From Nitrospinae bacterium bin107 (GTDB lineage: Bacteria > UBA8248): 64,000 nucleotides of DNA. Numbering within the stretch: position 1 is the first letter of the stretch; each line of letters begins with the position of its first letter. The stretch covers positions 62,001 through 126,000 of the forward strand of contig MPNJ01000009.1 in NCBI GenBank assembly GCA_002238965.1, given 5' to 3'. The notes below the pieces were generated by a model, which ran no database searches, was not told the origin of the DNA, and was given only the letters and a program-made list of their open reading frames with translations. The translations under genes were made by a program, and so were the position numbers. Shown one piece after another: positions 29,717 through 36,681 of the stretch.

Positions 29717-30397
29717 TTACTCTTTTTTGATCAGGATGTTGTTGTACACCAAGGCCGCAGCCACGCCGCCGATGATGGGCCCTATCCAATAGACGAGGTG
29801 GTTGATGCCGTCGAAGCCGCCCCCGGCCAGAGCGGGGCCGAATGTGCGCGCCGGATTCATGGATGCACCTGTGAGTGGACCTCCCATCAGAATGTCCGCG
29901 GCGATGGTGAGACCGATCGCGAAGCCCCCCACATCGGGGTGTCTGTCGTCCACGGCGGAACCCCAGATAGCGGTGACGAGGAAGAACGTGAGAATGATCT
30001 CGATCAGAATCCCCATGCCGAAGCTCACGTCACTCGCCAAGGTCGGGGTTCCCAGATTCACCTTTTGCCAAACGTCGGCGGCAAAGATGATTCTCAACAG
30101 AATTCCGGCCACGGTTCCACCAACCAGTTGGCTGATGATGTAGGAAATGCCTGTGCCGCCGTCTGTCCTTTTGGTGACCATAAAGCCGATTGTGACGGCC
30201 GGATTGAAATGACCGCCCGATACGTGCCCCATGGCGGAAATCATAACCGAGAGGATCAATCCGTGGGCCAGGGCGATGCCGATGAGACCTACGGCTCCAC
30301 CCGTCTTCTGATTTAAGATGATGGCGCCGGCGCCTATGAAGCACAGCGCAAACGTGCCGATGGCTTCCGCGACGCAGGCCCTTCCTGTAGGACTCAT
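29717..30397 (-). CDS. Aquaporin (MIP family)
   Basis: 226 aa with six hydrophobic helices and both half-helix NPA boxes: GGHFNPAVTIGFM and GASMNPARTFGPALAG. The residues after the second NPA (R) and the absence of the long GlpF loops suggest a water- rather than glycerol-selective channel, but this is not decisive. The start at 30397 follows TAAGGAGAAG on the minus strand. Terminates against the hydroxyacid dehydrogenase operon. Confidence 0.93.
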   Translation of the reverse strand: MSPTGRACVAEAIGTFALCFIGAGAIILNQKTGGAVGLIGIALAHGLILSVMISAMGHVSGGHFNPAVTIGFMVTKRTDGGTGISYIISQLVGGTVAGILLRIIFAADVWQKVNLGTPTLASDVSFGMGILIEIILTFFLVTAIWGSAVDDRHPDVGGFAIGLTIAADILMGGPLTGASMNPARTFGPALAGGGFDGINHLVYWIGPIIGGVAAALVYNNILIKKE

Positions 30398-30515
30398 TTT
30401 CTTCTCCTTATTCGTTCGGGCGAAAGAATTGGAGGAAAATTCATGCCGCCATAGACTCGATCCGAAGGACTCCAAGCGCTAAAAACAGTTTATCTATATG
30501 CCTCATTATAGCAAA

Positions 30516-31475
30516 TCATGATGGATGCACCACGTTTTGAGGGTTGCCCGAGAATGCGGCGGCAATGTTTTCCACCGACATCAGAAGTCCTGCTTCCGTC
30601 ACCTCGGGCGTGATGCCCGCATTGTGCGGGGAGAGAACCACGTTGTTCAGTTTCCCGAGTGGATGGTTCGGGGGCAGAGGCTCCTGGTCGAATACGTCGA
30701 GACCCGCCGCAGCCAGAGCTCCGTTTTCCAAAGCCGAAATGAGCGCCGCTTCATCTACTATGGGTCCACGGGCGGTGTTCACCAGAATGGTATCCGGCCC
30801 CATTTGGGAGAACGCCTCGGCGCCGACCATGCCGATTGTGTCCGCCGATTGCCGTACGTGTATCGAGACGACATCGGACCGTTCATACAAAGTGTTCAAG
30901 TCGACGAACTCAAGACCTACCTCCGCAGCGAACTCATCGTCTGGATGAAAAGTCCAGGCGATGAGTTTCATCCCGATACCGGCGGCGATGCGGGCTGTCT
31001 GACGGCCGATGGCGCCAAGGCCGATGAGGCCGAGCGTTTTTCCGTTCAATTGCGTCATCTGCCCCCGCGGCCACTCGTCTGCCCGCATGGCGGTATCGTT
31101 TCCGGGTATCTGGCGCGCCGCCGCCATCATCAGGGCCAGGGTGTGCTCGGCCACAGAAACGGCGGCCACGCCCGGCGTGTTCGATATAATGACGCCTGCG
31201 CTCTCGGCCGCGCCTAAATCGACGTGGTCCGTGCCCGTTCCCCAAATTGAAAGTACCTTGAGAGCACCGCTATTCGAGAAAAAATCCGCGTCGAACTTGC
31301 AAAAAGCACGGATGTTGATGATGCCGTCCGCGCCTGAAACGCGCTTCAGCAACTCTTCAGGCGTTTGCGGGTTTGAGATGTGGATATCCGCGTCCCCGAT
31401 TTCCCGCAACCGGGTTTCAGCGGCGCTTCCCATGAAAACGGAAGGATAGTCATCTGGTACGACGATTCGGTTCAT
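30516..31475 (-). CDS. D-2-hydroxyacid dehydrogenase (NAD-binding), copy 2
   Basis: 319 aa. Nucleotide loop TLGLIGLGAIGRQTARIAAG. Catalytic Arg in LVNTARGPIVDEAALISAL, Glu in LDVFDQEPLPPNHPL and His in LSPHNAGITPEV. The N-terminus MNRIVVPDDYPSVFMGS resembles that of copy 1 (MQIVIPDDCYQLFEGS), so the two are paralogues of the same subgroup. It is transcribed away from the OsmC gene. Confidence 0.9.
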   Translation of the reverse strand: MNRIVVPDDYPSVFMGSAAETRLREIGDADIHISNPQTPEELLKRVSGADGIINIRAFCKFDADFFSNSGALKVLSIWGTGTDHVDLGAAESAGVIISNTPGVAAVSVAEHTLALMMAAARQIPGNDTAMRADEWPRGQMTQLNGKTLGLIGLGAIGRQTARIAAGIGMKLIAWTFHPDDEFAAEVGLEFVDLNTLYERSDVVSIHVRQSADTIGMVGAEAFSQMGPDTILVNTARGPIVDEAALISALENGALAAAGLDVFDQEPLPPNHPLGKLNNVVLSPHNAGITPEVTEAGLLMSVENIAAAFSGNPQNVVHPS

Positions 31476-31595
31476 AAAATTGCCCCTTAATAATCACGAG
31501 AATACGAGTGTTCCAGCGGTTCTCTTACATCGCCCTTGCGTGCATAATATCGTCTTTCTTCCGCCATTCTTATGACACCAAAGGAGACAAGACAA

Positions 31596-32150
31596 GTGGA
31601 ACCACTCGATCCGCGTAAAGACAGTACTGTTCCCGGTGAGCGTGCCATCGACAAGCCCGAACTCCCCACGCAGGGCTATGCTTTCACCATGTCCGCCGAC
31701 ACCGAAACGATAGAGGGAAAGGGACAGCTCAAGCTGGGGACGCACAGGCATTTCGAGGTGTATTGCGACGAGCCGCCCCGCATCGGCGGGGAGGATTCCT
31801 ACCCCCAACCGCTTTGCTATATCGCCATGGGAGTCGGGTTCTGACTCCTCACCCAGCTTGCGCGGTACGCGCACATGATGAAAGTGTCCTTCACGCACGC
31901 CAAGGTGCAAGTGGATTTCGATTATTTTTTGAGGGGTTCCGTTCTCAAAGGCACGGTAAATTCCGGCTGCAACGAGGTACGTACGCACTTTGAGGTGGAA
32001 TCCGATGAATCGGCGGAGAAAATACTCGCGGTGATCAAGAATGCGAAGCAAGGATGCTTCGCCGAACAAATGGTGACGGCCGCCGTTCCACTGAAAAGCA
32101 CAGTGAACTTGAATGGCGAATCGGTCTCGCTGAGCGGCGTCACGGCATAA
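31596..32150 (+). CDS. OsmC-family peroxiredoxin-like protein, predicted selenoprotein (in-frame TGA = Sec83)
   Basis: Read through the TGA at 31842-31844, the frame gives 184 aa of one OsmC-family protein. The first part ends SYPQPLCYIAMGVGF, the next residue is the TGA, and LLTQLARYAHMMKVSF continues in the same frame. In OsmC proteins the residue at this point of the central helix is the reactive Cys; the second conserved Cys is C154 (AKQGCFAEQM). No frameshift is involved. GTG at 31596 has AAAGGAG 9 nt upstream; an ATG at 31572 is the alternative. By family it would reduce organic hydroperoxides with a thiol/selenol. An ordinary reading gives two truncated pieces (to 31844, and from 31875). 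If it is not a selenoprotein, it is a single-point pseudogene. Confidence 0.65.
31842..31880 (+). promoter_or_regulatory. Candidate bacterial SECIS element
   Basis: Directly after the TGA, TGCGCG (31859-31864) pairs perfectly with CGCGCA (31868-31873) around the 3-nt loop GTA. The distance from TGA to the loop is 20 nt and the first loop base is G. Both agree with the known bSECIS pattern (loop about 16-37 nt downstream, G in the first two loop bases). The hairpin is inside coding sequence, as bacterial SECIS elements are. Confidence 0.6.
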
Positions 32151-32256: not shown

Positions 32257-33765
32257 TTACGCGGTGTCCGCGTTCGCCTGGGCGGCGCATTGTCCCGCTG
32301 CGGTGCCCGCCAGCTTGCCGTAGACGGAGCCCAGGGTAAGCCCCGCGCCTCCCGGGTAGTTGAAGTAGTAGACGCCGCCCACGAGTTCGCCCGCAGCGAA
32401 CAGCCCGGGGATTATTTCATTTTCGGTGCTCATGACTTCCGCTTTGGGCGTCACGCGGATGCCGCCGAAGGTGAACGTGATTCCCGTGGTGACTGCGAAT
32501 CCGATGTAGGGCGGTTCGTCGATGGGAAGCGCCCAGTTCGATTTCGGGGGGTCGATGCCTTTCGTGCCTTTTCCGTCTTTGATGGTCGGGTTGTATTCAC
32601 CCGGCTGGATGGCGGCGTTGTATTCCTGAACGGTTTTGACGAACTCGTCGACATCGATCTCGAGTTGACTCGCGAGTTCTTCCAACGTGTTGGCCTCGCC
32701 CTTGGTGACTTCGCGGATACGATATTCGTCGCGCAGCATATGAACCGTTTTCTGGTCGAATATCTGAAAGGCGGCCCGCTGGGGTTGCTGGAGAATGTTC
32801 CGGCCGTATTTGGCGTAGGTATAGTTTCTGAAATCGGCTCCCTCATCCACGAAGCGCTTCCCCTCGATGTTCACGATGATGCCAAACGGATAGGAGTGTT
32901 TCTGGTAGGATTCTCCTACCGTGAGGTCACCGAAGGGCGGGGCGTTCAAGTCCCAGGCGACGGCGTGGCACCCGCTCCAGTTGCCATAGGGCTGCGCTCC
33001 GATATCGAGCGCCATCTTGATGCCGTCGCCCGTGTTGTAAGGGGTGCCGCGGACTTTTGCGAGTTCCCAGCCCGGACCCAGGTAGCGGCAGCGCATCTCC
33101 GCATTCGCCTCGAAACCGCCCGACGCCAGAACGACCCCGTGGGTTTCGACCGTGTAGGGTCCATCGGGGCCTTTGACTTCCACACCCGTCACGCCGCCCA
33201 TCGGGTCCGTGATCAGGCGCATCGCCTTCGAAGCGTAGCGAATATCCACTCCGGCATTGTTCGCGGCATCGAGGAGTGAATCGATGAGGCCCCGTCCACC
33301 GCCGACGATCTCGAGAACCAGTCCTCCCCAGAAGCGCATCTTGCCGTCGACTTTGAATGCCTGCCGCCCGCTTGCGAGGATGAGCCGCAGGCCCTTGGAC
33401 TGCATCCATTTCAGTGTCGGAAACGACTCGTGGATGAGGACGGAGGCGAGGTCGCCGTCGGTCTGGTATTCGGTCAGCAGGGCAAGATCGTCAAAGAATT
33501 TCTCCGACGTGTAGGGGTCGATCTCGATGTTTTCCTTCTCGGCGTCGGAAAGATCGGGTACGAGCGAGTAGATGTCTTCGATACTGTTGAAGGCGAAGCG
33601 GAAGAGGCCTCCCGAGAAAGCGGAATTCCCGCCGCGCCATGCTTCGGGTGCTTTCTCGAGCACCAGCACATTGGCCCCCTGGTCCCGCGCCGCCAGCGAT
33701 GCGCAAAGAGCGGCGTTGCCGCAGCCCACGACGACGACATCATATTTCTCTGTAGCTTTCGGCAT
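32257..33765 (-). CDS. FAD-dependent oxidoreductase, tricarballylate dehydrogenase (TcuA)-like
   Basis: 502 aa FAD_binding_2 flavoprotein. The dinucleotide motif VVVVGCGNAALCASLAARDQG and LEKAPEAWRGGNSAFSGGLF resemble TcuA and KstD/FRD-type enzymes. GVVLASGGFEANAEM and the C-terminal FAAGELVGGVYYFNYPGGAGLTLG complete the FAD site. TcuA oxidises tricarballylate to cis-aconitate and passes electrons to an Fe-S partner. The divergent Fe-S gene at 34044 could be such a partner, though it is not a TcuB. GAGGAGGT lies 7 nt before the start. Confidence 0.82.
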   Translation of the reverse strand: MPKATEKYDVVVVGCGNAALCASLAARDQGANVLVLEKAPEAWRGGNSAFSGGLFRFAFNSIEDIYSLVPDLSDAEKENIEIDPYTSEKFFDDLALLTEYQTDGDLASVLIHESFPTLKWMQSKGLRLILASGRQAFKVDGKMRFWGGLVLEIVGGGRGLIDSLLDAANNAGVDIRYASKAMRLITDPMGGVTGVEVKGPDGPYTVETHGVVLASGGFEANAEMRCRYLGPGWELAKVRGTPYNTGDGIKMALDIGAQPYGNWSGCHAVAWDLNAPPFGDLTVGESYQKHSYPFGIIVNIEGKRFVDEGADFRNYTYAKYGRNILQQPQRAAFQIFDQKTVHMLRDEYRIREVTKGEANTLEELASQLEIDVDEFVKTVQEYNAAIQPGEYNPTIKDGKGTKGIDPPKSNWALPIDEPPYIGFAVTTGITFTFGGIRVTPKAEVMSTENEIIPGLFAAGELVGGVYYFNYPGGAGLTLGSVYGKLAGTAAGQCAAQANADTA

Positions 33766-34043
33766 TTCTCAAAACCTCCTCGAGGCCTTGGGTTCAAGGC
33801 GACTCATGTTTTTCGGATATGGGGGTGAGACCATTCCATGGGGGTTTTCCATCAAATCCGGCAGTCGGAAAAACAGCTTCTTAACTAGCATATTGTCGGG
33901 GCTTGGTCAAAAACACCCGGAATGAGGTGACTATTCACTGCATCGCGCTATCACAAGTAGCGTGGAGCCGCCCGTCATCTGTTCGGTTGACCATCCCGGT
34001 CGGCTCCCATAAAATTTTCTCTTCACCTTCATGAAGGAGAGTC

Positions 34044-35360
34044 ATGGAAGCGACTGCCTACCAGAGTTTCATGGAAGAGCGAATCACGCATATCACCGAA
34101 GCCTGTACGCACTGCGGAAAGTGTTACGAAGTCTGCCCGATGGTCTCGTATTCAGAAGCCAAGGGAGCAGAACCCGAGCGGGTGACGAAATCGGTGATCG
34201 ACATCATCAATGATCGCCCTCATGAGCCGGATGGGGCGTTTTGGGCCAAAGCCTGTCAGAAAAGCGGCGTTTGCATCGAGGCCTGCCCGGAGGACGTCAA
34301 CCCGCGTGAAATGCTCTCCTATGCCAAGCTCAAGCTCCAGAACGTCGAATCTGAGAAAGCGGACATTCAAGAGGCCGGAAAGACTTATTTTCAGGATATG
34401 AGCCGCAAGATCCGTTTCATGGCCGCGCTCCAGCTCGAACCCGAGCTATTCAGAGGTCTCACTGCCGTGCGGGGCCCCGGGGCAAGCAAAGTGGATGCGG
34501 TGTTTTATTTCGGATGCAACATCCTCCAGACGCCTCACATCCTGCTCTCCTGTATCGATGTTTTCGACCGGCTCGGGCTGGACTATGAGGTCGCCGGCGG
34601 CGTGGGCCATTGTTGCGGCATCAACCACATCAGGCGAGGGGATCTTGAGTCGGGAGGAGAGATGGGGGCGCGTTCGCTTGCGCATTTCAAATCTTATGAG
34701 CCGGAACGGGTCATTACGTTTTGCCCCACTTGCCAGATGCAGTATTCCGAATATCAACACCTCTACACTGGAAAGCCGGTTCTCCCGATGGCGGGTGACT
34801 TTGATCATAGCGAGGAGGAAGTCCTGCCGTTCATCCACATCACGCAATACCTGGTGGATAATCTGGAAACTTTACGGGGAGAATTCACGCAAAAGGTCGA
34901 AAAGCGCGTAGCCGTGCACCTGCACGGGGGAACCGATGGCGTCGAGGAGAACGTCATAAAAATCCTGCGAGCGGTCCCCGGACTCGATTTCGTGGAGATT
35001 GAACAGTTGTCGGATCATGCCTATCAGTGCCCCACGCTCGTCATTCCCGAGGCGAAAGCGGCGATGCGCGAGAAGCTTATGGACTCGGCGCGCCGCGCCG
35101 GGGTGGATTCCCTGCTCACCGTTTACCATAGCTGCCACCGGGAGCTATGTGATCTCGAAAAGGGGGAGCCCTTTGAAATCGAGAATTTCATGACGATTCT
35201 CGGCCAGGCCATGGGTTTTGAGTATCCCGATTACACGAAGACGTACAAAATCTATGAGGATATCGATCTGGTCATTCAGGAGGCGGAGGACACGCTGCGC
35301 GCTTTTGGCATGGCGCCCGAGAAAATGCGGGAGCAGCTTCAAACGGCGCTCTACGGCTGA
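34044..35360 (+). CDS. (Fe-S)-binding protein with two CCG domains (HdrD/GlpC-like)
   Basis: 438 aa. Two N-terminal 4Fe-4S motifs: CTHCGKCYEVCP and, with altered spacing, CQKSGVCIEACP. Then come two cysteine-rich CCG modules: YFGCNILQTP with GVGHCCGINH and FCPTCQMQ, and a second with VYHSCHRELC. Such proteins move electrons between a flavoprotein and a quinone or disulfide. No membrane helix is seen, so it is cytoplasmic or peripheral. It is divergent from the TcuA-like gene (278 bp apart, no recognisable operator). Function unproven. Confidence 0.82.
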   Translation: MEATAYQSFMEERITHITEACTHCGKCYEVCPMVSYSEAKGAEPERVTKSVIDIINDRPHEPDGAFWAKACQKSGVCIEACPEDVNPREMLSYAKLKLQNVESEKADIQEAGKTYFQDMSRKIRFMAALQLEPELFRGLTAVRGPGASKVDAVFYFGCNILQTPHILLSCIDVFDRLGLDYEVAGGVGHCCGINHIRRGDLESGGEMGARSLAHFKSYEPERVITFCPTCQMQYSEYQHLYTGKPVLPMAGDFDHSEEEVLPFIHITQYLVDNLETLRGEFTQKVEKRVAVHLHGGTDGVEENVIKILRAVPGLDFVEIEQLSDHAYQCPTLVIPEAKAAMREKLMDSARRAGVDSLLTVYHSCHRELCDLEKGEPFEIENFMTILGQAMGFEYPDYTKTYKIYEDIDLVIQEAEDTLRAFGMAPEKMREQLQTALYG

Positions 35361-36294: not shown

Positions 36295-36681
36295 TCAACC
36301 CCGCTGCGCCATCTCGATGCTGATGTTGTCAGGCCCCTTGATGAAGGCGATCTTAACCCCCGGGCGTATCTCCCAGGGCTCGCAAATCCACTCGGCGCCC
36401 TTTTCGGTCAGCTCTTTTTGCGCCTCGTCCATGTCGTCGACCCGGAGCCCGAAATGGTCCAGTCCGTAGCGGGGGTCTGAGCCCGTCCGCACCGGGTCTT
36501 CTCCCTCCGCCCGGCCCGAGACGAGGAACACCATGCCGTTCAGGTCCATGTTGAACGAGGGCGCGCCGCCCAGCTTTCGCTCCTCCACGACGGTGGCGCC
36601 GAACATGTCGATCCAGAAATCGCGGGCGGCGTGCGGGTCTTCGCTCCTGAAGTGAAGGTGGTCGTATGAGTATCTGGCCAT
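36295..36681 (-). CDS. VOC-superfamily (glyoxalase/extradiol-like) protein
   Basis: 128 aa, the two beta-alpha-beta-beta-beta modules of the vicinal oxygen chelate fold. Likely metal ligands are His in YDHLHFRSED, His in GLDHFGLRVDDMDEA and Glu in NISIEMAQRG. Substrate not predictable. Stands alone, 197 bp downstream of the dioxygenase start on the same strand. Confidence 0.85.
   Translation of the reverse strand: MARYSYDHLHFRSEDPHAARDFWIDMFGATVVEERKLGGAPSFNMDLNGMVFLVSGRAEGEDPVRTGSDPRYGLDHFGLRVDDMDEAQKELTEKGAEWICEPWEIRPGVKIAFIKGPDNISIEMAQRG

Follow-up and report, generated by a model that had tools for sequence, protein, structure and literature searches.

The window, that is, the whole stretch of 64,000 nucleotides from Nitrospinae bacterium bin107 that was analysed, carries near its centre an OsmC-like gene with an in-frame TGA, preceded by two genes on the opposite strand (Table 1). 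Direct reading of the window established that the TGA is the sole internal stop between GTG 31596 and TAA 32150, which agrees with the statement of the preliminary description that two open pieces share one frame. GTG 31596 is preferred over ATG 31572 as the start because a putative ribosome-binding site lies 9 nt 5' of the former. The context of the TGA, MGVGF-U-LLTQLARYA with U at residue 83, and the intact second Cys also proved to be as first described. Translated through the TGA, the protein matches the Pfam OsmC domain PF02566 (E 1.9e-12) and scores 181.2 bits on the NCBIfam model NF041052, above its curated cut-off of 95. Among seven same-genus copies compared in 21 pairs, the pooled pN/pS amounts to 0.032 for the part that precedes the TGA and to 0.103 for the part that follows, so that purifying selection is strong in both parts and less so in the second. 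A codon-usage scan of both window strands for TGAs between coding-like flanks, run with thresholds set by the authors, ranked TGA 31842 first among the five that passed. The other four TGAs, with weakly coding-like flanks, are located at 36478, 49151 and 56710 on the forward strand and at 893 on the reverse strand.

Table 1. Features of the OsmC-like locus, in coordinates of the window
Feature	Position	Strand	Evidence or remark
Aquaporin-family (MIP) channel gene, conserved neighbour	29717..30475	-	PF00230, E 1.7e-56
D-2-hydroxyacid dehydrogenase gene, divergent upstream neighbour	30516..31475	-	PF02826/PF00389; in 10 of 15 loci L001-L015
Putative ribosome-binding site AAAGGAG	31580..31586	+	Read directly; 9 nt 5' of GTG
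OsmC-like selenoprotein gene (predicted)	31596..32150	+	GTG start to TAA; 184 aa with Sec83
In-frame TGA, predicted Sec codon 83, first reactive Cys position of OsmC	31842..31844	+	TGA in 75/75 copies; TGC/TGT in 16/16 distant OsmC
Thr86 of the UxxT motif	31851..31853	+	Invariant in 73/73; published OsmC-like selenoproteins have the motif UxxT
Bacterial SECIS hairpin (predicted)	31859..31873	+	6-bp stem (31859-31864 with 31868-31873), loop GUA 31865-31867; covariation, synonymous compensation, -7.8 kcal/mol
Cys154, predicted resolving thiol	32055..32057	+	Invariant in 73/73; counterpart of the second Cys in the alignment with PDB 3cje

The read-through protein was matched in 30 of 98 genomes at E <= 0.001. 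After removal of duplicates and ten partial tblastn rows, 75 distinct copies that are more than 40% identical and cover the site were retained, and every one of them has TGA in one shared column. Two of these rows, under 150 aa, were left out of the alignment, and in the 73 copies aligned U83, L84, L85, T86, R90, G153 and C154 are invariant, the two reactive positions of the Ohr/OsmC peroxidases (U83 and C154) being among them. In the window's phylum, the family was found in all 18 genomes searched, at 1 to 11 matched places each. TGA is present in 74 of these 76 places, a few of which contain another stop too; the two without it are each half of a copy with a broken frame and do not reach the site. 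The figure of 11 belongs to G012, with one place interrupted by a contig end; the same genome counts eight copies in a broader sample of 386 genomes, where at most eight candidates were scored per genome. The window's own genome (G000) harbors three TGA copies, each scoring 162-181 bits on NF041052 (cut-off 95).

The 16 named relatives comprise Nitrospinota and Candidatus Tectomicrobia MAGs, three "bacterium" MAGs, two Chloroflexota and two betaproteobacteria; the samples for G048's class, for the phylum of G383 and for that of G065 numbered just 1, 5 and 1 genomes, respectively, and led no further. Diverged Sec-OsmC genes are arranged in tandem pairs in G010 (L090), G015 (L012), G013 (L014) and G012 (L107), and frame-split copies, probably pseudogenes or assembly errors, occur in G017 (L132 on C212) and G008 (L134/L044 on C280). 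Viral contigs gave 14 pattern matches with no relative among them, and six plasmid records reached only 28-33% identity and belong to the OsmC family wherever annotation exists.

The TGA had been proposed to occupy the place where OsmC proteins keep their first reactive Cys, and the distant OsmC genes bear this out: all 16 distinct ones examined, which are 22-30% identical where tblastn aligned them, have TGC or TGT exactly in the TGA column. These 16 rows are a subset of the weak matches, namely the distant matches that were returned as loci or fetched. The window's own genome also possesses a distant OsmC gene without an internal stop, and its codon in the column is TGC. Four distant members carry TGA, namely L019 (already within the 75), L159, L160 and L161. 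In a quick tree of 89 rows, which left out two short Sec rows and three of the 16 Cys rows (L081, L138 and L030, short or gapped), 76 Sec rows fall on one side of a branch with an SH-aLRT of 95, long branches being flagged. The nearest solved structure by sequence, PDB 3cje (58.4 bits), has Cys at both reactive positions, and its CVMTQ and KGCF align with ULLTQ and QGCF of the window protein.

A perfect 6-bp hairpin with loop GTA had been described 20 nt downstream of the TGA. The stem and the loop were confirmed, with a correction of the distance: the 20 nt are those between the TGA and the GUA loop, and the stem begins 14 nt after the TGA, at 31859. The rules for bacterial SECIS elements printed in a passage of PMC13188914 call for a loop of 3-9 nt, a stem of 4-16 bp, a G in the first two loop positions, a UGA-to-loop distance of 16-37 nt and an MFE <= -7.5. 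As had been expected, the hairpin falls within all of them, with a 3-nt loop that opens on G, 6 bp, 20 nt and -7.8 kcal/mol when folded alone. In single-sequence folding the region is unremarkable (z -0.66 for 49 nt, with 54 of 200 shuffles folding equally well, and z -1.11 for 91 nt, neither significant), and the support for the hairpin therefore comes from comparison more than from energy; the isolated 15-nt hairpin has a z of -3.05.

In the first set of 70 distinct rows, 93.3% of the cells are paired and the covariation amounts to 0.257 versus a shuffled mean of 0.064, a value reached by none of 500 shuffles, with the outermost stem pair open in 19 rows. Where residue 92 is Ala, in 73 copies, the third base of its codon can change synonymously, and in 72 of them it pairs with the middle base of codon 89, as G with C (57), C with G (11), T with A (3) and one G-T, the last copy having A-C, and the Arg90 codon is CGG in all 75 copies. 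Counted as independent events, the stem changes are few; for pair 20-30, there are two independent row pairs on the starred branches (both co-changing) and four on the best tree, numbers too small for a sign test.

The hairpin was further examined in Chloroflexota copies held out from the first set. Loci L170-L192 yielded 22 aligned loci (21 with TGA and one with TGC), L172 being a non-member, and the held-out 18 are the 21 TGA loci minus L170, L171 and L174, which are repeat copies already used; the Cys locus, L178, was kept apart. In these 18 copies, 85.2% of the cells are paired and the covariation is 0.512 versus 0.183 (0 of 500 shuffles as high), and two of the five measures are not above shuffles, namely both-side changes (99 of 500) and further pair types (161 of 500). 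The two innermost pairs, invariant in the first set, vary here on both sides (C-G to A-U and G-C to A-U). All six pairs are possible in 13 copies and five in two more, which gives 15 of 18 with at least five of six, and the stem is not formed in L175, L176 and L188. The minimum-energy fold contains the stem in nine of the 13 six-pair copies, L177, L182, L187 and L189 folding otherwise.

A natural Cys version was also encountered. A search of 400 Chloroflexota genomes gave matches above the NF041052 cut-off in 27. A single TGA interrupts 26 of these matches, and the one from G684 has no stop; the codon at the site was checked for 20 of them (19 TGA and 1 TGC), and the other seven are known by stop count. 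The stop-free match, L178 (1480-1929), has TGC in the column, only three of its six stem positions can pair, and 48 nt of it fold at -1.8 kcal/mol. In L184, a relative with 50% identity to it, TGA stands at the site and the six stem pairs are complete. Judged by its sequence, L178 is what SECIS loss after a Sec-to-Cys replacement looks like, in one case only. Of the 38 Chloroflexota matches under the cut-off, 36 are stop-free, as a stop count and not as the codon at the site, and the best of them reaches 93.8 bits, so that stop-free relatives stand near the border of the family. The idea of a "Sec-only" family, which came from the 386-genome sample where each site-covering match above about 100 bits has TGA, was rejected, as L178 has TGC above the cut-off.

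The complete set of SelA, SelB, SelD and tRNA-Sec, recommended in the preliminary description as a check, is present in the window's own genome. The tRNA-Sec (C32:49578-49670) spans 93 nt in the Rfam match and has the anticodon TCA, an 8-bp acceptor and a 5-bp T stem. SelA (C14:174444-175829) scores 576 bits versus a cut-off of 267.9, SelB (C14:176770-178656), situated near SelA, 385.7 bits versus 242.25, and SelD (C32:206681-207643, L084) 333.9 bits versus 125. This SelD is itself a selenoprotein candidate: its TGA lies at GGU, and a hairpin of 6 bp with loop GGA comes after it. In 13 family genomes searched, matches over the cut-off were obtained for tRNA-Sec in 13, SelA in 12, SelB in 12 and SelD in 10; SelD was missed in G004, G010 and G011, and both SelA and SelB were missed in G004, which is 79% complete. 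Among the genomes outside the family that carry a TGA-OsmC gene, SelA is over the cut-off in four of six.

In an AlphaFold2 model built from 19 sequences (pLDDT 77.8, pTM 0.71), a long helix spans residues 72-94 and contains residue 83, and residue 154 lies between two helices. Foldseek, too, ranks 3cje first among PDB entries; this OsmC-like protein of hydroperoxide resistance matches with an E of 2.8e-7 and a TM, on the query, of 0.59, and the overall superposition is poor, given the rmsd of 13.8. In fold and in the two reactive positions, the protein resembles the Ohr/OsmC/YhfA thiol peroxidases, of which 3cje (Jann_2040) is an example, and it differs from them in that Sec would replace the first Cys and that the Glu expected ten residues earlier is absent. 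The Glu of active Ohr/OsmC enzymes, which we take to lie about ten residues before the Cys, would be at position 73 here, and this position, so placed, is Leu or Met in 73 of 73 copies. The enzyme may accordingly be YhfA-like, since the Glu is not conserved where expected, and a peroxidase function is, for the same reason, plausible as a prediction. A section of PMC8945050 describes Ohr and OsmC as reducing peroxides by two Cys with recycling by lipoyl systems, and YhfA proteins as devoid of the neighbouring Arg and Glu, with their biochemistry not worked out.

The following course is proposed for the insertion of selenocysteine, for the reaction as a peroxidase and its reductant, and for the parts played by Sec83 and Cys154. 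The hairpin, with its loop 20 nt after the UGA, would recruit SelB and Sec-tRNA-Sec(UCA) in translation, and selenocysteine would go in at residue 83. Sec83, in its UxxT motif, would then attack a peroxide or another electrophile, Cys154 would resolve the resulting selenenic acid through a Se-S bond, and a cellular dithiol would reduce this bond.

An aquaporin-family gene is found beside the OsmC gene in 11 of the 15 loci L001-L015, seven of the 11 being from the window's genus and several genera being represented; with flanks this short, some misses may be cut off. Downstream, 32257-35360 encodes a TcuA-like FAD dehydrogenase (NF006130, 582 bits versus a cut-off of 369) and a divergent 4Fe-4S/cysteine-rich protein, which may be the electron partner of the dehydrogenase, and both are seen in the window's genus only, as far as the flanks reach. 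That the OsmC gene is functionally linked to its neighbours is a guess, and the aquaporin might admit H2O2 or another small substrate. The second Sec-OsmC copy of the window's genome (L079:2143-4568, G000:C24) is followed by two genes, one for a SelD/HypE/ThiL-like AIR-synthase protein that reaches the curated cut-off in none of the listed models, the other for a HAD phosphatase; judged by matched coordinates, about 315-330 nt separate the AIRS gene from the second copy in 7 of 7 genomes of the genus.

A lone TGA at a Cys codon resembles a nonsense mutation, and a pseudogene or sequencing error, in which TGC or TGT became TGA in this strain, had to be considered, the more so as two frame-split copies, those of G008 and G017, probably are real pseudogenes or errors of assembly. 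This account is refuted by the conservation of the TGA over genera and phyla: the codon is common to all 75 distinct copies, which come from many genomes, the pN/pS stays far under 1 before and after it, and, because the relatives keep the TGA with a covarying hairpin, it is not a private point mutation, which leaves the account a negligible probability. Reading of the UGA as a residue other than selenocysteine, either Cys by a tRNA with a UCA anticodon or Trp by a change of code, is only slightly less improbable. Homologues have Cys at the position, and the Sec machinery can be recoded in some bacteria; selenocysteine itself is about 47 Da heavier than cysteine and has the selenium isotope pattern. 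Against such a reading, this genome has SelA, SelB and SelD together with a tRNA-Sec whose acceptor measures 8 bp and whose T stem measures 5 bp, and the UGA is tied to the covarying SECIS hairpin. A general reassignment of UGA was rejected, since several family copies end on a UGA stop, by which UGA is not reassigned genome-wide.

A weightier alternative concerns the chemistry: the protein would be a real selenoprotein and an OsmC-fold thiol/selenol enzyme acting on another substrate, such as an electrophile, an organic acid peroxide made nearby, or arsenic or selenium species. The typical Ohr/OsmC Glu is absent at the position expected for it, and several diverged paralogs exist per genome; a review passage, moreover, assigns the OsmC-like selenoprotein to COG1765 YhfA (PMC9312934). 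Sec at the peroxidatic position together with an invariant second Cys is, in contrast, what a peroxidase needs, and we regard the alternative as a serious possibility with somewhat the smaller share of the probability. The TGA itself is almost certainly read by the cell as selenocysteine at the reactive OsmC position. The best explanation of the whole, drawing on the frame, the TGA conservation, the Cys counterpart, the covarying hairpin, the same-genome machinery and the hairpin-less natural Cys version computed here, is a genuine NF041052 selenoprotein, an OsmC/YhfA-like redox enzyme with hairpin-directed Sec at residue 83, at a probability of about 95%. The selenoprotein interpretation of the preliminary description is thus supported, and the outcomes that it had named beforehand as contrary were all looked for and none was found.

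The family is not new, and the gene is a real member of a known selenoprotein family. The precedent in marine metagenomes that had been invoked for it does exist: three OsmC-like selenoprotein sequences with UxxT from the Sargasso Sea have been in print since 2005 (PMC1088965), the GOS survey contains five (PMC2398784), and the OsmC-like selenoprotein is listed in passages of two reviews (PMC9312934 and PMC13188914). The window protein shares with them the Pfam OsmC domain or COG1765, the UxxT motif and a stem-loop after the UGA (PMC1088965, PMC2398784, PMC13188914). What the present copies add to those metagenome sequences is a view of the host lineage, of the full machinery within a single genome and of the number of paralogs. 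Also among the closest known systems is NF041052, "OsmC_like_Se", "OsmC-related (seleno)protein", over whose cut-off the copies of the window's genome score and in which Sec and Cys members both exist; nothing defines a new family against it, and the Nitrospinota/Tectomicrobia copies are its many-paralog branch. With this curated model in NCBIfam, the two-fragment outcome that had been foreseen for automated annotation is in principle outdated, and it still holds for pipelines without selenoprotein models. In the literature searched, neither "selenoprotein" together with "Nitrospinota" nor "NF041052" was found; "selenocysteine" and "Tectomicrobia" co-occur in PMC12858407 and PMC5649159, the passage concerned in the former being unrelated to OsmC.

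What is new is the presence of the family in 18 of 18 genomes of the phylum, with 1 to 11 copies each, and the natural Cys control. A more far-reaching picture, tentative and as a whole rather unlikely, would have Sec-OsmC fixed in Nitrospinota/Tectomicrobia, with up to 11 diverged paralogs per genome, which retain the UGA and, for the most part, the hairpin and form a specialised set for selenium-dependent defence against peroxides or electrophiles, the window copy being perhaps paired with an aquaporin that admits H2O2 or a small substrate. A family first met on metagenome fragments is now placed in lineages whose genomes carry the Sec machinery, and the synonymous compensatory changes in the hairpin, together with a natural Cys replacement without it, make the evidence unusually clean for a gene that pipelines without selenoprotein models would call as fragments. 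The paralog set would make the reason for many Sec copies of one redox enzyme testable.
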